Source: a virus | Strand: one strand, 5' to 3' | IMG/VR virus record: IMGVR_UViG_3300035034_000713 | Span: 1-23,976 of that record | DNA: 23,976 nt | Position numbers and translations under genes: made by a program | The notes under the pieces: model-generated | Database searches by the model: none | What the model saw: the letters and a program-made list of their open reading frames with translations, nothing else | What the model was told of the DNA's origin: nothing | Shown: positions 5,739 through 20,505 of the stretch, in pieces | Position numbering within the stretch: the stretch's first letter is position 1 | How the letters are laid out: each line of letters begins with the position of its first letter

Positions 5739-7052
5739 TTACTGGTTGTTACGGGGCGGAGAAGCACGCCGTTCGAGTGCCCGGATAGCTGCTGCCCCTG
5801 TCGGGGAGGCAGTCCTTATTTGATGATCTGTGCTCAACTCTTGCCGGATGATCCTATTTGTCTCAGAAACGAGAAACTCGTTCACAACCTCTATGAGGTT
5901 TGTCTTGTATGTCTCTTTTGGAATGTCTGGGTTGTCAACCCCAAAACTCCACCAGCTTGTTGCCCCTGTACGGTTACCTGCTTCAAGCATCAAAGCGCCC
6001 CAAGGCATAGTTGGCGGAAGGTTTTCTCCAGAAAACTCCTCCTTCACTTCCTGATAGGCATCTTGCACGTTCTTCGTCGTAGTTTCCGGGTCCTTTGGAG
6101 AAAGCGTTGATACCAATGTCTGGACAGCGCTTCCTGGAGTGACCTCATTGGGGTTGGCCACGCTTGTGAACACTGGGTTGTTAGGGTACTGCTTCATCTG
6201 TTCATTGTGGCGGACATCCAGATAAGCGCTGACCTCATCTTTTGCTCTAGCCTCTGTAGGGGTTGCCCCATATTGGGTAGCCCACAGTTCCCTAACCTGC
6301 TGAGCCCCTACACGCGATTCTTCAGCATTGAAATTGCGTGAGCGCGTCATGTTGTTGTACAGGTCGAGCGCGTCTCGCTCAGTATCAGCAAAATTGACCG
6401 ACTCAGAAACGACTTGACTGAGGCTGTCTCTTCTGGCCCGGGTTTCTTGGCCACGTTGGTACTCAGACTCGTTTCGGATACTGCCACGGCGCGCGTTGAA
6501 GGCGGCATTTCCGGCTTTCAGAAGATTCGCCACATGCCGGGGAGCGAGCTCCGAACCCTCCACATCGCCTCTGAACCCTGCACGTTGAGCAGCCAAAGCC
6601 TCCTCATCCTGGTACTGATTTAGGCCTGTCAGCCTTGTCCGAAAAGTGTCCAACAACGGTTGAGCTTCTTGGTCCTCCCGACGAGTGGCCAGGGCCAAGG
6701 CATCATCCTTCCGTTGTTCCAGGGTACTCAGGCGCTCGACACCCGCTTCCCGGAACTGGTTCCGATCGATCGCATCGCCGAAGCTATTCAGACGTTCTGC
6801 GATGAGTCCTTTTTCCTGGGCTGCTCGCAACTCTTCAGGCGACTTGAAGCTGGCCAGGAAATCGCGCATTTCCGTCGTGTTGGCTTCTTTCTCGCGTCCG
6901 AAGTTTGCCGCCAACCGGTTCTGGCGGTCCTTGATGATGCGCGAAAAGGTGTCCGTGGCGCCCTGGAAGTTCTGCTGGGCGCCCTGCATGAGATTCGAAA
7001 CCCCCGAGAAGTCGGGGGTGTTGATGTTCCGAAACGTGATGGGTCGGCTCAT
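5739..7052 (-). CDS. Probable internal virion/ejection protein, N4 gp51-like
   Basis: The product is 437 aa, with no signal peptide or clear membrane span. The start at 7052 has GGAG eight bases upstream and follows the stop of the 153-aa gene after only 2 nt. The next gene, the vRNAP, starts 11 nt after its stop. The N-terminus (FRNINTPDFSGVSNLM, residues 7-22) resembles the opening of internal virion proteins encoded next to vRNAP in N4-like phages. The rest is strongly helical and rich in Arg, Glu and Gln, with coiled-coil potential through about residue 240. Position immediately before vRNAP matches N4 gp51. By inference it is packaged and helps deliver vRNAP and DNA. No enzymatic motif was recognised. 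Confidence 0.65.
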   Translation of the reverse strand: MSRPITFRNINTPDFSGVSNLMQGAQQNFQGATDTFSRIIKDRQNRLAANFGREKEANTTEMRDFLASFKSPEELRAAQEKGLIAERLNSFGDAIDRNQFREAGVERLSTLEQRKDDALALATRREDQEAQPLLDTFRTRLTGLNQYQDEEALAAQRAGFRGDVEGSELAPRHVANLLKAGNAAFNARRGSIRNESEYQRGQETRARRDSLSQVVSESVNFADTERDALDLYNNMTRSRNFNAEESRVGAQQVRELWATQYGATPTEARAKDEVSAYLDVRHNEQMKQYPNNPVFTSVANPNEVTPGSAVQTLVSTLSPKDPETTTKNVQDAYQEVKEEFSGENLPPTMPWGALMLEAGNRTGATSWWSFGVDNPDIPKETYKTNLIEVVNEFLVSETNRIIRQELSTDHQIRTASPTGAAAIRALERRASPPRNNQ

Positions 7053-7054
7053 GC

Positions 7055-7516
7055 TTAGACTCCGTACTGCCGCATGTAGTCAGCCGTCGACATGTGCGCA
7101 TTCGGGTTGGCTGCTACCCGGGCATTCTGCCGGTCGGCGAACTGCGAGTTGGTCATGTTTCGCTGGGCCTCGAAGTTCTTGTTGAAGGCCTCTTTCTGGA
7201 ACTTGAACTGGTCTTTGGCCAGGCCGAATTGCTTCATCCCCAGGTAGGCATCCAGCCCACCAGAAATGGCCCCGAGAGCAGGAATACCCCAACCACCGCC
7301 ATCTTTGCCGCCCAGCATGTCTCCGAAAAACGAAGAATCGGTAGCAGGCGGGTTCACGCCTGCAATCGAACCCCCTTCGGGAATGAGGTTGGCGAGCTTG
7401 CTGATGTCGATCGGCTCTACTGCAGCTGCGGGCATCAAGCTTTCTGCCATACCTGCAGCTCCCGGGGTAGAGCCGAAACCAACCAACTTTCGATAGATAT
7501 CAAGCGCTGAAGACAT
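7055..7516 (-). CDS. Small virion protein with Gly-rich helix, N4 gp52-like position
   Basis: The product is 153 aa. The frame is open further upstream, but ATG 7516 is chosen because AGGAG sits eight bases before it and the extension would only repeat DNA of the 758-aa gene in another frame. The chosen start overlaps the end of that gene by 17 nt, which suggests coupled translation. The sequence has a Gly-rich weakly hydrophobic stretch (about residues 69-92). It is followed by an amphipathic Lys/Gln/Phe helix and a Gln/Asn/Arg-rich tail ending in YMRQYGV. This helix-then-amphipathic layout is common in small ejection proteins of podoviruses. Position matches N4 gp52. Specific function unknown. 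Confidence 0.6.
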   Translation of the reverse strand: MSSALDIYRKLVGFGSTPGAAGMAESLMPAAAVEPIDISKLANLIPEGGSIAGVNPPATDSSFFGDMLGGKDGGGWGIPALGAISGGLDAYLGMKQFGLAKDQFKFQKEAFNKNFEAQRNMTNSQFADRQNARVAANPNAHMSTADYMRQYGV

Positions 7517-9776
7517 TGAAATCACTCCTGATTGTCGTTTCTGTAGTAGGCAGTGTAAGGCTGATGTCCACGTAGGAGGAAATCGCATCGAGCCCGCGAA
7601 TTCCAACGTTCCCGGAATGGACAGTCCGGTTGTAGTACTCCTGAGGTTCTTCGCCCAGGATAGAGAAGGGCGCAAGGCCCACGAACTCGAAAGGGTTGAT
7701 CAGTGAAGACGTTTCCAGAAGCCTCTTGGCATCCTCGAGCAGATCCAGTTTCTCTTCGGCTGTCTCGAGGAAACTCCCAATCTCTTTCTTGAGATCGTCG
7801 ATGAGGTCTGCCGTATTGCGGTTCACGGCTTGCATCAGGCCTGTGGAAGCCATGAGCAGATCCTGTGCCCAAGGAGCGCCCTTGAGGCCTTTCACGCCGT
7901 ACTGGCCGTAAGCTATGGATACTACCGCAGCCACGGCTGCGATAATCAAGGCCAGGTCACCGCCGATAACGTTGACGATGAAGTCTGTGGCAGCCTGGAT
8001 CCCGAAGCCGATGGCTACGGTGGTCACGATCAGTTGGGCAACAGCCAGGGCCCCAGCCTCCATGGCAACCACAAGGGAGGTGTACAGAGCAATTCCTGTC
8101 TGCACCAGGATGACGACAGCGAGAACGATCATGATGGCCTTGAAAAGGCCTGACTGATACCACTTCACCTTGGTCACGATCTTCGAATTGAAGATGAAGT
8201 GCATCGATCGTGCGAAGAGGAACTCACGCTCCCGCAGGGAGTAGTCCCCAATGATTGAGAAGTCGACGGGCACCAGAAGCTCATCTGACCCAAAGCCAGC
8301 GACATGAGTCTTACTTCGGTAGATGTGGTAGACCAGCTCAGGCTTGAACACCAGGATCTCGTCATAGGCGTTCTCAGTGACCTGCTTTCGGTAAAAGAGA
8401 AACTCACCAGTCGACTCTTCAAGCAGCTTGGCGAATGCGCCACTGAAGCTCCTGCGATGGACTTCCTCAGTGGTTGTGGTTTCCACCACATCGCTACCGT
8501 GCTTGCCCACCTCAGCAATTTGGCCCCCCTTTCGGCGCTTACTGATGCCTGCATGTCGGAAGGTGAATTGGAACTCACGGTCAGCAATCACCTGAGCAAA
8601 CTGGTGGTCGATCTTCTCGTCGCCAGGCCAAGCAATGTTTCCGCTACCGACTGACCACAACGCATTGAAGTGGTCAAACAAGTACTTACGTGCCACCTCA
8701 CTTGTGTCGTGTGCATCGACGGCCATGACCATCATGGCTTGCTCGACATCATCGATATCTGGGTTTTCGTGGATAGCTTCAGCAACTGCCTGGAAATCCA
8801 TGTTGAAGTAGTTCAGCAACTCTACGCTGGTGTCGTAGTCCAGCGTCCCAACCATCGCCGGAGCTGACATGTCTTCACTGTCTCGCCGGAAGTGAACGAA
8901 GGGAAAGTAGGTTCCCAGACCGTCAAAGGGGATGTCTTGCACATCGTCGATCGCAGGGTACGTACCTGACCCATTTTCGTAGAGCCAGTACCGTGTCTTT
9001 TCAACGGGCTGAGCCCCGCTCGTATCGGTGTAGCGGTACCGGGCATGGTGATACTCCACGTCCTCATCGAAGCCAGTGATGGGAATGGTGAACATCCCTT
9101 GAACGACTTGGCCGGCAGCGTCCTGATACATGTGGTGGACTTCGACATGATCCTCTGTCGCAGCCTCATCGACGATGTAGGAAGTTCTCGCCTTGAAGGA
9201 TCCCAATGTCTCTGCTGTCGGACGCAGTGGGGTTGAGCCGCCTGCGGCGGGCTCACCCCACTGCTCGAGTGCTCCCAGGTCCCGGTTATCAAAGGTTTCT
9301 GTGGTGTAGATGGCAATCAGATCTTCCAGGTAAACCGGGAAGCCCTCTGTAGCGCTCAAATTCTCGAGCTCGTTCGTCTCAGGATTGTAGCCGTGGCTGT
9401 CGACCAGAGTGGTCCAGGCAACGTGCAGGGAGTTGATCGAAGTGAACGCGTAGTCCTCTATCGTGATCGGGAACCCGATCTCGTTTTCGATGGCGAACTT
9501 GACCGCTGTTTCGGCATCACCCTGAGCAGCGGTATGGCCCTCAGGCAGGCCATAGCTGTAGTGATCCTGGGCATAGCTGAAGAGACGTTCAGCCTTCAGG
9601 GCGATCGTATCGGCAAAGCCGCTGATGATGTACTCCGGGATCGAAGCGCCCACTTCTGGAGACATGACCGCCTTGATCACGCTCGTCTTGAGGGTATCAG
9701 GCAGGGACACATCGTCGATTACCCGTTGGACCTGAGCCCCGACCGTCACTTTCTTTTTGGACTTGAACAGCCCCAT
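7500..9776 (-). CDS. Large structural/ejection protein with membrane segments, N4 gp53-like
   Basis: The product is 758 aa and starts at ATG 9776 with GGAG seven bases upstream. The N-terminus is basic (MGLFKSKKKVTVG), and a YGLPEG motif near residue 75 recalls the N4 gp53 family of virion proteins. The middle (about 100-540) is mixed alpha/beta without a recognised enzyme motif. Residues about 545-625 are strongly hydrophobic and give two to four predicted membrane spans, followed by an amphipathic Asp/Glu/Leu helix (about 655-690). A membrane segment in a virion protein fits a role in forming the DNA or vRNAP delivery channel, but this is inference. A terminator lies directly upstream, so its transcription may be set by read-through or a separate promoter. 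The stop overlaps the next gene by 17 nt. Confidence 0.65.
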   Translation of the reverse strand: MGLFKSKKKVTVGAQVQRVIDDVSLPDTLKTSVIKAVMSPEVGASIPEYIISGFADTIALKAERLFSYAQDHYSYGLPEGHTAAQGDAETAVKFAIENEIGFPITIEDYAFTSINSLHVAWTTLVDSHGYNPETNELENLSATEGFPVYLEDLIAIYTTETFDNRDLGALEQWGEPAAGGSTPLRPTAETLGSFKARTSYIVDEAATEDHVEVHHMYQDAAGQVVQGMFTIPITGFDEDVEYHHARYRYTDTSGAQPVEKTRYWLYENGSGTYPAIDDVQDIPFDGLGTYFPFVHFRRDSEDMSAPAMVGTLDYDTSVELLNYFNMDFQAVAEAIHENPDIDDVEQAMMVMAVDAHDTSEVARKYLFDHFNALWSVGSGNIAWPGDEKIDHQFAQVIADREFQFTFRHAGISKRRKGGQIAEVGKHGSDVVETTTTEEVHRRSFSGAFAKLLEESTGEFLFYRKQVTENAYDEILVFKPELVYHIYRSKTHVAGFGSDELLVPVDFSIIGDYSLREREFLFARSMHFIFNSKIVTKVKWYQSGLFKAIMIVLAVVILVQTGIALYTSLVVAMEAGALAVAQLIVTTVAIGFGIQAATDFIVNVIGGDLALIIAAVAAVVSIAYGQYGVKGLKGAPWAQDLLMASTGLMQAVNRNTADLIDDLKKEIGSFLETAEEKLDLLEDAKRLLETSSLINPFEFVGLAPFSILGEEPQEYYNRTVHSGNVGIRGLDAISSYVDISLTLPTTETTIRSDFNVFSA

Positions 9777-9789
9777 CGCATTTCTCCAA

Positions 9790-9813
9790 CAAAAAAGGGA
9801 GCACTCAGCTCCC
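9790..9813 (-). terminator. Rho-independent terminator after the phosphoesterase gene
   Basis: On the minus strand GGGAGC-TGAGT-GCTCCC is followed by six T residues, a textbook intrinsic terminator between the 435-aa and 758-aa genes. A second, mutually exclusive stem exists: GGAGCAC (9798-9804) can pair with GTGCTCC (9818-9824), which would break the terminator stem. This leaves room for attenuation rather than full termination. Confidence 0.8.
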
Positions 9814-9838: not shown

Positions 9839-11146
9839 TCAGTCAGCCGCTCGGCGGGCGAACTCTCCGATCATCTCGTCTGGCTGCCGATGGAGGTAGA
9901 GGCCCCCGACTACGGCCATGTCCGTCACGCTCACGTACTCGTGGTTGACAGCCTTCGTCTCCGTATTGATATGGACGATGTCGAAGCCCATGGACCAGAA
10001 CTCGCCTTCGCAGTAGCTTGCCCGAAGACGGTGCCCACACCCCAGTTGGAGCCACTGGTAGGCTCCCTGAAGGGCGTTCTTCTGGTGGAAGACCTTCCAT
10101 GAGTGGTGGTGACCGTTACAGCCAGGAAGGCCCCAGTTGCGCGCATGAGGGTGGTGGTGGAACAGGAAGGCGTCAGAATACGTCTTGTAGCTCTTCTCCA
10201 CCTGCTTGCGCTGGTCGGCCTTGTTGAAGGCCGCCAGGTCCGCCTTGGCGATGTAATTGATCTCGTACTGGTCCAGGCCGAAGATCTTCGAAACCGTCAA
10301 GCCAAGGAGATCAGAGAGGACGACTTTCAGCGCTGGAGTTTGGTCAGCCAGGTGCCGGAGGAGCCGGTACTCGTGATTGCCTTCGATGTAGTCGATCTGA
10401 CCGTCAACGGCAGCTTCACGAATCGGCTGGAAGATGTTCTCCTGGGCGAACTGGATCCGGCCTACCACATCCCAGTCCCGAGGATCGTTGTTGAAGCGCC
10501 CGAACTCAGGAAGGTCCAGAATGTCACCGCCCAACACGACCGTGTCAGGCTGCACCATCCGAATGGCTGAGAGCAGGGTGCGGAGGTAGAAAGGGTCGAC
10601 TTCGACATCGTGGAGGTCTGAAGCGACAATCAGCGTCTGCACCTTGCTGTTGTGTTGACGATCGTACCGGTCACCCAGATTCACTCGGGAGTTGAATTCT
10701 CGGTAGGTGTCGGCAGCCACATGCTTGGCAATCTGCCGCTCGAGGCCATGTTGGGTCCGGGAGAGCTCCAGACCTGCTTGGCGACGGAACTCCAGGAAGG
10801 TCCCGAAGTACCGGTTCCAGGTGGAATCCGAGATCCCAGTTTCCTTCCTGAAAGCCATGCGAGTGATGTGCCGCTCTGCACCCACCGTACCCTGCATTTC
10901 CCGAAGCCTTTCGATGAGCTCTTCAGGGGTCATGGGCGGGCAGAAAGTGGCCCGCATCTCAGGGATCAAGGCCTGTCCTGTGCCCGTCCCGGATCGGTCG
11001 ATCATGTGAAATTCGCCACTCCGGCGAAGGCGTTGCCCCCGACTCTTGGTCGAGAGGTAGGACTTCCCAAGGTACTCAGCAATCGAGCGAACCGTTGGGA
11101 AGCTGTCGAGGTCGTTCCACAGAGACGCGAACCCCGCATTCTTCAT
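9839..11146 (-). CDS. Calcineurin-like metallophosphoesterase with N-terminal DNA-binding-type domains
   Basis: The product is 435 aa. The catalytic half shows the ordered metallophosphoesterase motifs: D177-x-H179, GGD208-xx-D211, GN257-H258-E, a His cluster at 330-334 and GHHH at 346-348. These residues bind two metal ions in phosphoesterases and in Mre11/SbcD nucleases. The N-terminal 130 residues look like two DNA-binding units. Residues about 17-44 are helix-turn-helix-like ([19 protein letters not shown]). Residues about 75-126 resemble the homing-endonuclease-associated repeat, ending in [22 protein letters not shown]-type sequence. The start overlaps the gp54-like gene stop as ATGA, and an intrinsic terminator follows. 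N4 has no such gene between 53 and 54 as far as I recall, so this looks like an accessory insertion. A nucleic-acid substrate is inferred. An alternative is a general phosphatase with a fused targeting domain. Confidence 0.85.
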
Positions 11147-11766
11147 GCGTTCACTCCGGCCAGGAGCTTATTGACGATCCGGCCAATAGCCGCGTCGTCA
11201 AGCATGTTGGTGGCGTCTGCGATGGTCCCGCTGTCTGTCGTTCTGCGGACGTTCCAGGTATCGATGAGGGTCTTGGCCGACTTCTGTTCAGCATCCCGCA
11301 GGAAGCCGTCACTCTGGCGCTGGAACAGGATCTTCTGTTTGCCCACCACACTGTCATCGTCGACACCGGCAGCCACGATCTGAGCTTGCTCAGTCAGGCG
11401 CTTCTGGTTGAGCAACGAGGTTTCTGCGATGGCCTTGTCCTTGGTCAGCATGAGGACATCGAATTCAGCATCGAGCTTGCACTTCTGTGCCGTGACCATT
11501 GCCGTCTGCTGGACTTCAGTCAGGATCTGCTGGCTGAGAAGGTCTGCTTCGAGCTCAGCCTTCTCCTTGGCCAGAAGATACTGCAACGAGGTGTTCAGCA
11601 CTGCCTGCAGTGACCCAAGGTAGACCTGAGAATACTCAGGGCCCCTGATACGGTTTCTGGCGTACTCCGCGTCCAGGTGGGCTTTGGTAGCCCGCATCAA
11701 GACATCGAACACCCCCGATCCGTCGAGGGTTGCTTGAGAGAGTTCATCCAAGTTTGCGAGACTCAT
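11143..11766 (-). CDS. Virion structural protein, N4 gp54-like
   Basis: The product is 207 aa, with AGGAG seven bases before ATG 11766. The region [20 protein letters not shown] followed by [18 protein letters not shown] (residues about 20-57) matches a highly conserved block of the N4 gp54 family. The middle is a long Gln/Leu/Glu/Lys coiled coil (about 60-135), and the C-terminus has a WNVRR segment and a short helical tail. N4 gp54 is a virion protein associated with the tail or ejected material. The stop overlaps the phosphoesterase start as ATGA, so the two are probably translationally coupled. Assignment rests on recognised family features and order, not on a search. Confidence 0.7.
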
Positions 11767-12457: not shown

Positions 12458-13624
12458 TTACAGCGGCGCGGCGGTCTTGACCAGCGCGATGCGTTCCGGA
12501 CGGAGAGCCATGAAACCGTAGTACCACTTGATGGACATGAAGCCCGTCTCATCATAGGGGTCATCACGAGTAGGCATGGATTCACCAGGCTTCCTGTGGG
12601 TGATCTTGAACTTCACGGTCTTTCCATCGGTCTGGAAACCAATGGTCGTGAAGCTCGCGTCGCCCACCACCAGCATCGGGAACACGTCGAACTCGGTACC
12701 GGTCTTGTAGTGCGTGGAGTTGGCCGTTGCGTCCGCACCAGCACCTGCCCACTTCAGCATTTCCGGCACGACCACGAGGCGGAAGTTGCCCACCGAACCC
12801 CACTCACCGTTCAGGGGGGTGGCCCCAGCGGCGTACTTCTGTACCGGAATGAAGGCCCGCTCACCATGGAGGTCCACCATGGCTTCGATGAGCGGCTGCA
12901 GTTCCGAGCCGATGTACATCACGCGGCAAGCCGGGATGGTTGCGGTGTCGATCATCCGCGTACCCGTGATCACCTTGGTGTGCTTCGGCGTACGGTTGTT
13001 GTCGAGGTCGATGGCCAGGCGCATGAGATCCCCGTAGGTCACCTCATCGGCTGCATCGATCTCAGCATCTGCCGTTGCGTCACCCGCGAAGCGCACGACA
13101 CCTGCAGCACCCAGAAGGTCGATCTGAAGCGCGGCTTCAGTGATCTCGACGGCACCGTTGACCATCTCGCGGTTGATGTGCATGCGCAGCCCGGAGTCCG
13201 AATCGAAGTCCACGGATTCCTGGGTGTACTCGTCGAAGAAGCCGAACTTCTCGATCGAGCCTTCAAGCTGCTTGCGCTTGAAGCCCACCCGGTTGACGCG
13301 GCCACCGTTCTCCGTGAGGGTCGGCAGCTTGCCGGTGATGGTGCCCACGTCACGGCTGGAGCCGTACAGGTTGCCGTCAGCGATGACAGAACCTGCAGCA
13401 TCCAGACCTTGGCTGTTCACGTTCTCGTCGTCGAGCAACGGGATGTAGTGGAAGCGCTTGATGGTCTTGCCCATGTGCTTCGGCATGGACGCGACATCAG
13501 CCGCCAGCATGAAGTATTGCTCACGGCGAGCTTCAATCAGAGCTTCCTTCTGGTAGAAGAACTCGGAAAGCTGACCACCAACAGAGGAGGCAGTACCTCC
13601 AGCCGGATCGTTGTATTCACGCAT
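12458..13624 (-). CDS. Major capsid protein, N4 gp56 family
   Basis: The product is 388 aa, close to the roughly 400 aa of N4 gp56. AGGAG lies nine bases before ATG 13624. The N-terminus has [18 protein letters not shown] (about 22-39). The C-terminal third carries the segment [20 protein letters not shown], then [11 protein letters not shown], and ends with [20 protein letters not shown]. These are recognisable blocks of the N4-gp56 family (HK97-like fold), which forms the icosahedral shell. The scaffold gene lies 28 nt upstream and a strong hairpin follows the stop, the usual setting for a highly expressed capsid gene. No frameshift or processing site was seen. Confidence 0.92.
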
Positions 13625-15311: not shown

Positions 15312-17510
15312 TCATTCAGGCCGAAATTTTTCTAACGTTTTCAAGAAGTCCTGGATGGCCGCAGTAGCTTGGTCCTCCCTTTCAAACGCTCGATCCAAGA
15401 GTTTCAACTTGGCTTGGGAGTTGGCCTGTTCTGCTGTCTGTTGCAGGGCCCGAACCTGGCTGACACCAGACTCTTGTTCCACAAAGTTCAAGTTGGCCTG
15501 GTCCGTCTCACTTCTGAGGTTCTCCTCTTTAGCCCCTTCGGTAATGGCCTTGGCAGTGCGGAGATCTGCATCTGCCCGCTCACGCATGGCCTTGCCATCA
15601 AGCTCTGCAATCTCTTTCTGCAGCTTCTCGATCGTGAGGAGCTGGATCTGTTCCTGGTAGGGGTCCGGTTCCGGTCGATACTCCTCGATGTCCTTGGCCA
15701 GGTCAGGCATCTTCCGGAGGCGCATCAGGCTGGCCAGGAGCTTCCGGCGCATGGCTGGATCTTCGTCAGGGCCCACCGTCTGTAGGATGTAGGCAATGTC
15801 CTCTGCCTGGGAGTGCTCTTCCTCGGCGGTACTGATGCTCAAACGCAGGTCGAAGTTCCCGGCCAGGTCATCACGCCGAACCTTCACAAACTGGTCATTT
15901 GTGACGCGAACTACTTCCTCTTCGGAGAGGAACTCCTGATTCATGGAGATCAGCTTACGGGCAATATCGATCAGGCCTTGGGACAGGCGACGGAGAATGC
16001 CCAATTCGCGCTTGGAAGCTGCGTCGAGGACACCCCGGACACCGGTGGCCAGCTTCCCAAGAGACTCGCCTGAGAGCCCACCAGAGAAGGCTTTCACACC
16101 AGTCATGGACTCAGCTTCTTCATTCTGAAGCTGAAGCATGAACTGAGCAGAGTTGGGGATCTCTGGATACTGGTGCATGAAGATGGCGTGGCGAGGATCT
16201 GCGATCGTCGGGTTGAACTCGTAGTCCTGACCCTCTTCGAATTTGCGCCTATTCACTGTGTCCAAAGCGTCTTTTCGAACGCCTTGTTGCGCGTTGGCGC
16301 TCTTACCCATGAGGTCGATCATGCCCCGGGTGACGGCACCAAGAATCTTCTGATTGTCGATTAGAAGTTCCCCATCAGGCTCACCATAGATCGCCTTACG
16401 GACAGGGAGATACTGCACTTTGACGAAAGGAAGGCCTTGATCCGGGTAGGGGTTATCCTCCATACGGATCAGCGTGTCACCTACCCAAGCAGCGACAAAA
16501 GGACGTACAACACCAGTACCGTCAACATCGCGGAATCCCCAATACTCGTGTACGACGAATTTCTTACGCGCCTCATCGTCAAAGTTAAAGTTGCGTGATT
16601 CGTCGTCTGGGTGTGCATGGTCAGGTTCTCCAAGGGGGCTGTTGGTTTCAAGATTGATGTTGTCCAGGTTCTTGTAACGCCCGTCCTTTCTGAGTAGGGA
16701 CAGTGACGACTCAAAACGGTGGGTAATGAAGCCAGCCTTGTCCAGATCCCCTTTGCAGGTTGGATCCACAATGACATTTCGGTAGTCACAGACTTCCAGG
16801 CTAGGCTGGTTGCGTATGGTGCGAGATTCTTCGACTTCTTCAACACCATCCGCGACTGGCTCGATGGCTTCTCCCTCTTCCATGCTCAGCTCGAAAGCTT
16901 TCTGCATGGGTTCCGGCAGTTCGAAGAAGGCCCCAGGGTCACTGGCTTTTAGCTCAGCCATCTCCTGGACGATTGGGGCAAATTGCGGATTCACAAAGTA
17001 GCGGTAGGCAGTTCTCTCGACCTTCTGGGTTTTCTCTTCGAACTCCCAAGCCAGTTTGACGAAGACTGTTCCTTCATCGACTGCAGTACGAACATACTCA
17101 TCGATAAAGGCTGTCTTCTTCAGTTTCGTGTTGAACTGGTTGTTCAGAAGGATCTGGTTCTGTTCTGCCCCCTTCACGTCTTCCCAAGAAACGGGGCTGA
17201 CATTGAAAACGCTTGGGGTAGAGAGGAAGGGTTCGCTCAAGGCGGCGTAGCGCCATTCCGCTTGTTTGCGGATCAATTTCGGCTGAACAGAGGAGGCATT
17301 TTTTGATGTTTTGACTTTCGCGCGATTTTTGACATGTAGGTTGTCAAGCCACTCATCGATACGGGTTACCCCCGAATCGTGAGAAGCACGGGCCTCTTCG
17401 AGGTCTTTTTTCAGCTCCAGCAGCGTGGGCTCACGCTCCCAATTCGTCAGCTTCTCTGCTGACACGGTATCTTGTGGCTCCACCGTCTGTTCTTCCGGCA
17501 TTGGCTGCAT
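15312..17510 (-). CDS. Portal protein, N4 gp59-like
   Basis: The product is 732 aa, near the N4 portal length. The N-terminal region has a conserved WREP-like opening, then KLIRKQAEWRYAALSEPFLS (about 77-96) and NQFNTKLKKTAFIDEYVRTA. The central part has VCDYRNVIVDPTC, VVHEYWGFRDVDG, a loop DNPYPDQGLPFVKVQY and a long helix region around LLIDNQKILGAVTRGMIDLM. The C-terminal 130 residues are a Gln/Glu-rich coiled coil. These fit the portal ring through which DNA is packaged and leaves. Two start codons are possible: 17510 has GAGG only two bases upstream, while 17501 has it eleven bases upstream. The earlier one is listed. It begins a run of head-assembly genes and is preceded by a palindrome. 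Confidence 0.88.
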   Translation of the reverse strand: MQPMPEEQTVEPQDTVSAEKLTNWEREPTLLELKKDLEEARASHDSGVTRIDEWLDNLHVKNRAKVKTSKNASSVQPKLIRKQAEWRYAALSEPFLSTPSVFNVSPVSWEDVKGAEQNQILLNNQFNTKLKKTAFIDEYVRTAVDEGTVFVKLAWEFEEKTQKVERTAYRYFVNPQFAPIVQEMAELKASDPGAFFELPEPMQKAFELSMEEGEAIEPVADGVEEVEESRTIRNQPSLEVCDYRNVIVDPTCKGDLDKAGFITHRFESSLSLLRKDGRYKNLDNINLETNSPLGEPDHAHPDDESRNFNFDDEARKKFVVHEYWGFRDVDGTGVVRPFVAAWVGDTLIRMEDNPYPDQGLPFVKVQYLPVRKAIYGEPDGELLIDNQKILGAVTRGMIDLMGKSANAQQGVRKDALDTVNRRKFEEGQDYEFNPTIADPRHAIFMHQYPEIPNSAQFMLQLQNEEAESMTGVKAFSGGLSGESLGKLATGVRGVLDAASKRELGILRRLSQGLIDIARKLISMNQEFLSEEEVVRVTNDQFVKVRRDDLAGNFDLRLSISTAEEEHSQAEDIAYILQTVGPDEDPAMRRKLLASLMRLRKMPDLAKDIEEYRPEPDPYQEQIQLLTIEKLQKEIAELDGKAMRERADADLRTAKAITEGAKEENLRSETDQANLNFVEQESGVSQVRALQQTAEQANSQAKLKLLDRAFEREDQATAAIQDFLKTLEKFRPE

Positions 17511-18888: not shown

Positions 18889-20505
18889 TTATACGATATA
18901 TGACCCCATGCGGTCGATTCCTTCGTCCTCATCCTCGAGGCCCCAGATCCCGTCTTCGGAATTGGCCAGGGGCGCTTCTTCAGAGGGCTTCCAGGGCTTC
19001 ATGACGCCCAACATGGAGATGGTGTCGATGAAGTCATCGTGCTTGGACCTGAAACCGCCAGGTGAAGCCAAGGAGAGCTCGTTGATCGCCTCTTTCAGGG
19101 GCTCTGAGAGCTTTTTTTCGACCGGGAAGAAGATCTTACGGGTCTGGAACATGGGCACCATGACGTTGAAGCGCTCCATCTTGTTGGTATTCGGGCGAAT
19201 CCCAGGGAAATTGCGGTTTCCCTCCGAAGCCAAAGCAAAGAAGATGTTCCGGTTGAGCATCTCGTTCTGAATCCAGGGAATGAAGCCTTCCTGTTGGCCT
19301 GAAACTTCCACGCCGACCGACTGAGGCCGGTACATCTGGGCCAGACGGAAGAGATCATCGATATTTTTGCCCATTCCCTGATGTTTGCAGACCCCATCGA
19401 CCCACAGCCAGTCGCCGACGTTGTTGTACGCCCACACAGAGACAACAGAGAAGTCTGTGGCTTCTTTGGCAGAGGTCGCGAAGTCCGTTGTGATGTAGAA
19501 ATTGAACCGGCTCCGGTTCCGGAGCACTGCGTCGATGCGGTACCAGCCGATGTCGTGGTCCTGAACCAGCCGATCTTCATCGGACATGATTCGGAGCATG
19601 AGCTCCTGGTTGAATGTGTCGATTTTGCCGAGCTGAAGGGCCTTCTCGTACTTCGTCAAGACGTAGTCGTAGTCGAACCGGTCCGGCCAGCTGCCTTTGA
19701 AGTCTTCCCGGGAGCACGGGAAGGCCTCGCAGACCGGAAATACGTTCACAGCCCACGCGCCGGACTCCACAGCCTTGTAGAGCGGGTCCTTGGCGTTGAA
19801 CGGGGTGCCTGACCAGATGATCATGCTCTTCTTGGGGTGCAGCGCGTAGTCGACTGCCTTGTAGACCGTGTCCTCAACGGCAGCAATGACGGTCGCTGAC
19901 CGGGCATCCTCGTCCGAGATCAGGTCATCGAGTACCGCAAGCTGGGGACGTACGCCTTGTTCCTTGGTGCCCCGCACACCGGTCTTGGCCCCGTAGCCCT
20001 TGACGATGAAGATCTTGCCGTCTGCGTTACGGAACTCCCATCGCACGTCTGTGAATCGGGCCTCGGGGATGTACTCCCTCAGAAAATCGCTGTTCTCCCA
20101 ACGAAATTCGAGGTTCTTGCGCATGTTCTTGACGCCGTTCTCGATGGAGTCTGAGACATAGAGCGCCAGGTTGATCGGTCCGAAGCCTGGGATGGCTCCA
20201 TACGTACCCAAGTACAGGAACAGGTACTCGCCCATCAGGGTGGTTTTGGCGATACCCCGATGGCAGAGGTTCACCACCCGGGCCCCGTTCTCTGTCAGGG
20301 TGTCCAACATGTGGTAGTGGACCAGGGGAGTCTTGTTCTCTTCCCCGTCTTCACCATTCACGAGCTTGATGAAGGTGACGAACTCGAGTGCGAAGTCACT
20401 CGGGACGTAGTTGTGGTCAACGGCGTAGCTTACCTGGTTGAGATAATCCTCAACCTTAGGTGTCTCAGCGACTTCATCAATGATTTCGTCCAGGGCACTA
20501 CTCAC
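18889..20505 (-). CDS. terL: Terminase large subunit, N4 gp68-like
   Basis: The product is 538 aa. The ATPase domain shows Walker A as HRGIAKTT (82-89, Lys87), Walker B as AVLDD (190-194) and an SGTP coupling motif (232-235). The nuclease domain shows acidic residues in the expected order: TTDF (Asp341), VGVE (Glu400) and HDDFID (Asp490/491). It packages concatemeric DNA into the prohead through the portal and cuts it. The start codon is GTG at 20505, overlapping the stop of the upstream gene as GTGA, with GGGGAGG just before it, which indicates coupled synthesis with the putative small subunit. The C-terminal tail is acidic. The family is strongly supported. Confidence 0.93.
   Translation of the reverse strand: MSSALDEIIDEVAETPKVEDYLNQVSYAVDHNYVPSDFALEFVTFIKLVNGEDGEENKTPLVHYHMLDTLTENGARVVNLCHRGIAKTTLMGEYLFLYLGTYGAIPGFGPINLALYVSDSIENGVKNMRKNLEFRWENSDFLREYIPEARFTDVRWEFRNADGKIFIVKGYGAKTGVRGTKEQGVRPQLAVLDDLISDEDARSATVIAAVEDTVYKAVDYALHPKKSMIIWSGTPFNAKDPLYKAVESGAWAVNVFPVCEAFPCSREDFKGSWPDRFDYDYVLTKYEKALQLGKIDTFNQELMLRIMSDEDRLVQDHDIGWYRIDAVLRNRSRFNFYITTDFATSAKEATDFSVVSVWAYNNVGDWLWVDGVCKHQGMGKNIDDLFRLAQMYRPQSVGVEVSGQQEGFIPWIQNEMLNRNIFFALASEGNRNFPGIRPNTNKMERFNVMVPMFQTRKIFFPVEKKLSEPLKEAINELSLASPGGFRSKHDDFIDTISMLGVMKPWKPSEEAPLANSEDGIWGLEDEDEGIDRMGSYIV

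Follow-up and report, generated by a model that had tools for sequence, protein, structure and literature searches.

The phage protein Bxb1 gp47 is a recombination directionality factor that directs a serine integrase and is known for this function and not for nuclease action (PMC5737554). It belongs to a family of calcineurin-type metallophosphoesterases (MPEs) that also occurs in cluster-A mycobacteriophages. One of these proteins, A10ZJ24 Gp48, is reported to be a metal-dependent phosphodiesterase and DNA nuclease that gradually degrades linear, plasmid and genomic DNA in vitro, the tested mutants being inactive, and that is toxic to the host and counter-defensive, acting through DNA damage (PMC12287305). 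Mycobacteriophage directionality-factor MPEs have moreover been reported to carry inteins beside a conserved motif (PMC5050341).

Here we analyse a stretch of 23,976 nucleotides (positions 1 to 23,976 of virus record IMGVR_UViG_3300035034_000713, referred to as the window), which encodes a relative of these enzymes with two additional modules at its N-terminus, a helix-turn-helix (HTH)-like unit and a homing-endonuclease-associated repeat (HEAR). The available text of PMC12287305 does not treat this subfamily, and our literature search retrieved neither a published assay for a phage MPE with HTH and HEAR nor a paper combining Schitoviridae with metallophosphoesterase; the term 'homing endonuclease associated repeat' did not appear in the ten papers listed of 214.

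Results

The open reading frame at 9839-11146 on the minus strand starts with ATG, contains no internal stop and codes for 435 amino acids. An earlier note on this DNA had read the product as an MPE with a complete set of metal ligands, and Pfam, PHROGs, a structure model and an alignment with 36 homologues all agree with this assignment. The calcineurin-type domain comprises residues 169-419 (9890-10642, minus strand). Pfam Metallophos matches the window protein with an E-value of 5.7e-4 and 20.8 bits, just missing the curated cut-off of 21.5, and is matched in 36/36 aligned homologues (scan with E up to 0.1). In the PHROGs search phrog_20266 matches residues 75-421, i.e. most of the protein (E 1.4e-81), and the broader phrog_221 gives a further match (E 2.8e-17); no NCBIfam family was found. 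The complete ligand set consists of D177 and H179 in motif I (D177-x-H179, 10610-10618), D208 in motif II (G207-D208-I-L-D211, 10514-10528), N257 and H258 in motif III (G256-N257-H258-E259, 10370-10381), H331 (10154-10156) as well as H346 and H348 in the motif G345-H346-H347-H348 (10103-10114), all on the minus strand, and these eight residues are invariant in the alignment.

The N-terminus had been described in the same note as HTH-like and HEAR-like, and both descriptions hold. HEAR (PF18780, HNH_repeat) is helical and matches residues 73-127 (10766-10930, minus strand) with an E-value of 0.0016, which falls short of the Pfam cut-off in the window protein alone, and the scan with E up to 0.1 recovers it in 30 of the 36 family members with a best E of 1e-6; positions W110, G115, T116 and F117 are likewise invariant in the alignment. 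The HTH-like three-helix unit (residues 3-43, 11018-11140, minus strand) rests on three confidently modelled helices (3-10, 19-26 and 30-43), the alignment and weak NUMOD1/HTH matches (NUMOD1, E 0.022). Since the first HTH is absent from at least seven of the 36 aligned rows (L003, L048, L057, L058, L061, L063 and L065), HEAR is the steadier module. The composite protein forms a widespread phage family, phrog_20266, and HEAR is thus a standing part of it. HEAR is shared with HNH homing endonucleases, but in the window protein an MPE domain takes the place of the HNH catalytic domain, and the Pfam scan detected no HNH, GIY-YIG or LAGLIDADG catalytic domain in it.

An AlphaFold model of the full protein (mean pLDDT 84.5) contains two small helical units and the MPE domain. 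Structure comparison confirmed the MPE fold, with superfamily matches at Z 12-14. The top solved structure was the PolD DP1 proofreading exonuclease (Z 14.3, rmsd 3.5, 200 aligned residues), followed by Mre11, LpxH and SbcD at Z 12-13, so that the lipid-A enzyme LpxH lies within about 1-1.5 Z of the nucleases. The window MPE thus has the fold in common with the Mre11/SbcD and PolD DP1 nucleases over about 180-200 residues, but in sequence it is not significantly related to any solved structure, as a profile search against PDB sequences gave no significant match to the whole protein (SbcD, E 0.64). Unlike in Mre11/SbcD systems, no SbcC/Rad50 partner gene was named beside the MPE gene in the window, which is an incomplete genome. 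Modelled separately, residues 1-135 retained their helices (pLDDT 86.6). At the level of fold, a search with this segment matched mostly TetR-type HTH proteins with a best Z of 6.7, predominantly over residues 69-131; the profile search that the earlier note had called for, run with the N-terminus against PDB sequences, returned no significant match. According to the tool's own note the TetR-type matches may reflect a common arrangement, and Foldseek gave a best E of 0.32; the fold search thus lends weak support to an HTH-like N-terminal structure.

Among 50,697 annotated phage records 409 match the window MPE, and six of these cover at least 80% of the query, namely PHB04 (twice), RD-1410W1-01 (twice), ANB28 and BUCTxx99. 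The remaining records are nearly all from actinobacteriophages and, among the matches listed, match in the MPE domain. Relatives also occur in 64 viral contigs and 14 genome contigs, and the plasmids gave one weak Nocardia match. The phrog_20266 members of Bordetella phage PHB04, Roseobacter phage RD-1410W1-01 and Stenotrophomonas phages ANB28 and BUCTxx99 share 44-46% identity with the window protein over the MPE domain and the preceding stretch. In those phages the gene lies among early, DNA-metabolism or lysis/replication genes, whereas in the window it lies in the late structural block. Bxb1 gp47 is matched by tblastn with 26% identity over query residues 163-435 (E 2e-6) and by pairwise BLASTP over the MPE domain (E 1e-12). 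Gp47 and the cluster-A MPEs, including Gp48, share with the window protein the motifs GDxLDLP, EGNH(E/D)xR and GHxH as well as a C-terminal W-x-MGF stretch beyond the metal site, but these proteins comprise about 255 residues and lack the N-terminal HTH and HEAR. As a member of this Bxb1-type cluster-A family, A10ZJ24 Gp48 is the nearest homologue with reported biochemistry that we found, and a distant one.

Motif III is the site of intein-like inserts in two other lineages. Directly after GNHE an insert predicted from sequence is present in ANB28 and BUCTxx99 (325 residues; L005:7977-10034 and L004:7977-10034) and in a Parasutterella contig (227 residues; L181:7986-9938). The inserts begin with Cys and end with NFTGN before Cys, and for one of them the annotation gives a LAGLIDADG homing endonuclease gene.

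The usual genomic home of the family was determined from 77 loci, after L050 and L053 (from the genomes of L002 and L003), L066 and L068 (cut), L179 (interrupted frame) and the window itself (L001) had been left out. The 77 loci formed 44 clusters at 90% identity, and in 40 of these 4.5 kb or more was available downstream. PhoH, phrog_2500 and DnaB genes follow the MPE gene in 20 of the 40 non-redundant loci, with a primase gene too in 19, and in 16 of the 40 PhoH starts no more than 100 nucleotides from the MPE gene. At the other 20 loci the neighbours include genes for helicase, thymidylate synthase, dNMP kinase, primase and ribonucleotide reductase, and likewise tail fibre, portal and endolysin genes (114 of 138 neighbours named, from 18 of the 20 loci; PHB04 and RD-1410W1-01 from annotation). 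A converse survey started from phrog_2500 and covered 68 loci, not reduced for redundancy, that extend 4.5 kb or more upstream of it. An MPE gene was found in 17 of the 31 in which PhoH immediately precedes phrog_2500 and in none of the remaining 37. That none was found in the other 14 of those 31 indicates that the MPE is an optional member of the replication module and is not required. Genes of the phrog_20266 type are thus often found beside the DNA-replication genes of roughly 100-kb phages. The phrog_2500 protein itself (L006:8409-9110 and relatives) is conserved between PhoH and DnaB in many such phages and is a candidate replication factor. In one contig (L027 and L254) the MPE gene lies about 16 kb from a PhoH-phrog_2500-DnaB operon that has no MPE gene in front, the gene having moved within or into this genome.

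The genes of the window belong to an N4-like (Schitoviridae-type) late block on the minus strand, in the order terminase (18889-20505), portal (15312-17510), gp57-like gene, major head protein (12458-13624), gp55-like gene, gp54-like gene, MPE, gp53-like gene, two genes and virion RNA polymerase, of which the N-terminal 1909 residues lie in the window (phrog_2206, E 3.1e-166). The neighbours that the earlier note had named for the MPE gene were recovered, i.e. the virion structural gene at 11143-11766 (phrog_2050; N4 gp54-like in Littlefix) upstream and the gene at 7500-9776 (phrog_2220; N4 gp53-like in Pseudomonas phages) downstream. The gp52-like frame (7055-7675) overlaps the gp53-like frame by about 176 bases and may have a later start. 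The 437-residue protein encoded at 5739-7052, which adjoins the virion RNA polymerase gene, matches phrog_6467, a family of unknown function, at its N-terminus. The gp54 protein is strongly variable in length, with 207 residues in the window, where it lacks a middle stretch present in relatives, and 220 to 839 residues in relatives (L071, L074, L081 and L083). In seven relatives (L076, L077, L078, L079, L081, L082 and L086) the major head gene is matched in two pieces that part near query residue 84-88 and are separated by about 200-300 additional bases, so that the capsid protein may contain an insertion domain.

The gp54-gp53 slot was inspected in 98 N4-like loci, none of which contains an MPE gene; 96 of them come from viral contigs, and the other two are Littlefix and the RD-1410W1-01 late region. 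By tblastn both gp54 and gp53 were matched in 73 loci; gp53 as query in the viral contigs retrieved no relative. The two matches are 22-139 nucleotides apart in 72 of the 73, leaving no space for an MPE gene at those junctions. The exception is L081, whose large distance arises from a gp53 match that begins at residue 240 of a longer gp53 frame; with the gp53 start unmatched, this locus was skipped in reading the junctions. After removal of repeat contigs (L103, L116, L140 and L145) 68 distinct junctions remained, and 64 of them contain a hairpin followed by T residues, as compared to 1-7 in ten dinucleotide shuffles, the pattern being our own. In the window a terminator of the same kind, a hairpin with T6 at 9791-9813 on the minus strand, stands 3' of the MPE gene. 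The comparison indicates that this terminator predates the MPE gene and belongs to the ancestral gp54-gp53 junction. The earlier note was thus right that a terminator closes the gene, but the idea that this terminator is the MPE gene's own was rejected in view of the 64 junctions. As the relatives' junctions are empty and already possess the terminator, the MPE gene was added between the gp54 stop and the terminator of gp54.

At the upstream border the ATGA noticed before was confirmed at 11143-11146, a four-base overlap between the start of the MPE gene and the stop of gp54. The window gp54 ends with VNA-stop as in relatives, many of which have VDA, VGA or similar, and ATGA occurs at the gp54 stop in none of the 68 relatives. 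GGAG at 11154-11157 on the minus strand, 7 nucleotides before the MPE start and within the last gp54 codons, is a likely ribosome-binding site. Its presence is no proof of adaptation, since Shine-Dalgarno-like tetramers occur in the gp54 tails of 19 of the 68 relatives.

In a tree of 60 rows (reduced from 78 by removing rows with identical last 250 residues; for L172, whose start codon is uncertain, a later methionine was used) the window MPE pairs with L006 at 100/100 support and 57% identity. L006 is a 102-kb contig with its MPE gene in a PhoH-phrog_2500-DnaB-primase operon. RD-1410W1-01, the other N4-like phage found with an MPE, has the gene beside thymidylate synthase and outside the late block, and its protein groups with L175 and L055 in another clade. 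A single origin of the N4-like MPEs was rejected on this ground, and two separate acquisitions are the simplest reading. Base composition was likewise rejected as evidence of transfer, as GC (0.589), GC3 (0.748) and codon distance are in the range of the neighbours. With the slot empty in relatives and the sister protein encoded in a replication operon, it is well supported that the gene has come to occupy a late-gene slot, as the earlier note had supposed, and horizontal acquisition is most likely.

Discussion

The reading that we consider probable, if far from assured, is that the window MPE is a horizontally acquired, DNA-tethered nuclease of the Bxb1 gp47-containing family that is expressed late together with gp54. 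The protein would be a metal-dependent phosphodiesterase whose MPE domain most likely cuts DNA while the HTH and HEAR modules keep the enzyme on DNA, and the fact that these two modules precede the MPE domain makes a DNA-tethered nuclease the most economical reading. One copy would have been gained horizontally and have inserted precisely between the stop codon of gp54 and the gp54 terminator. Because it lies inside the gp54 unit and ahead of the terminator, we propose that the gene and the late structural genes are transcribed together, and its translation would be coupled to gp54 through ATGA with GGAG upstream. That the N-terminus binds DNA, that translation is coupled and that the gene is expressed and acts late is what we infer, late expression from the gene arrangement; the role would most likely be degradation or trimming of host DNA, competitor DNA or replication intermediates. 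Of the functions offered in the earlier note, nuclease is accordingly retained as the best reading in view of the DNA-binding-like N-terminus, the homology to Bxb1 gp47 and reported DNA degradation by a family member (PMC12287305), with cleavage by the window protein itself being suggested by analogy; end processing, which the note had named beside it, may also apply. Against the favoured reading weigh the substrate promiscuity of the MPE fold and the closeness of LpxH in Z, the lack of a significant match among PDB sequences, the weak fold support for the HTH, the 20 of 40 non-redundant loci outside the replication operon, the 14 of 31 PhoH-phrog_2500 loci at which no MPE was found, the inconspicuous base composition, and the directionality function by which Bxb1 gp47 is known.

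An unlikely but substantial alternative is a phosphodiesterase for anti-defence or host takeover whose substrates would be small nucleotides or RNA ends and not DNA polymers. LpxH-type enzymes have the same fold at nearly the same Z, the MPE gene is optional and comes and goes beside replication genes, phage calcineurin-type enzymes have been predicted to counter nucleotide signals (PMC7824862), and Gp48 is reported to be counter-defensive (PMC12287305). The reported counter-defence of Gp48, however, operated via DNA damage, and two likely DNA-binding N-terminal modules would be odd for a small-molecule enzyme. Somewhat more doubtful is a sharper version of the nuclease reading, a site-directed Mre11-fold nuclease with homing-type recognition modules that would have been redeployed late to cut host, competitor or concatemer DNA during head filling, the same module being an optional and exchangeable member of replication operons in many phages of roughly 100 kb.

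We regard as improbable that the protein is a non-catalytic, regulatory DNA- or partner-binding protein. Its homology to Bxb1 gp47, a serine-integrase director (PMC5737554), would fit such a function, but all metal ligands are retained across 36 diverse members, and no integrase was found among the window proteins scanned (ten and seven), the window being a 24-kb fragment. Hardly better placed, and slightly less credible still, is a selfish free-standing element, relic or active, which would home into intergenic slots and use the MPE domain for cutting. HEAR owes its name to homing endonucleases, the insertion is at one junction in one phage only, and the contig with the MPE gene about 16 kb from the usual operon could be taken as a sign of mobility; yet the window protein has no homing-type catalytic domain, HEAR is conserved in a large family, half of the non-redundant loci have the gene in a fixed position ahead of PhoH, and the family itself hosts inteins, fitting a gene under functional selection. 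The selfish relic considered in the earlier note is therefore not supported. A virion component that is packaged and injected is the least credible reading, as only the position between gp54 and gp53 speaks for it, while relatives have no MPE at that position and the homologues in other genomes mostly neighbour genes for replication or DNA metabolism.

The locus documents the clean gain of a replication-associated gene by a late operon that is constant in other respects, and dozens of relatives show both the unoccupied site and the terminator already in place. It also points to a phage MPE subfamily carrying two probable DNA-binding modules, which may explain a choice of DNA over small phosphoesters.
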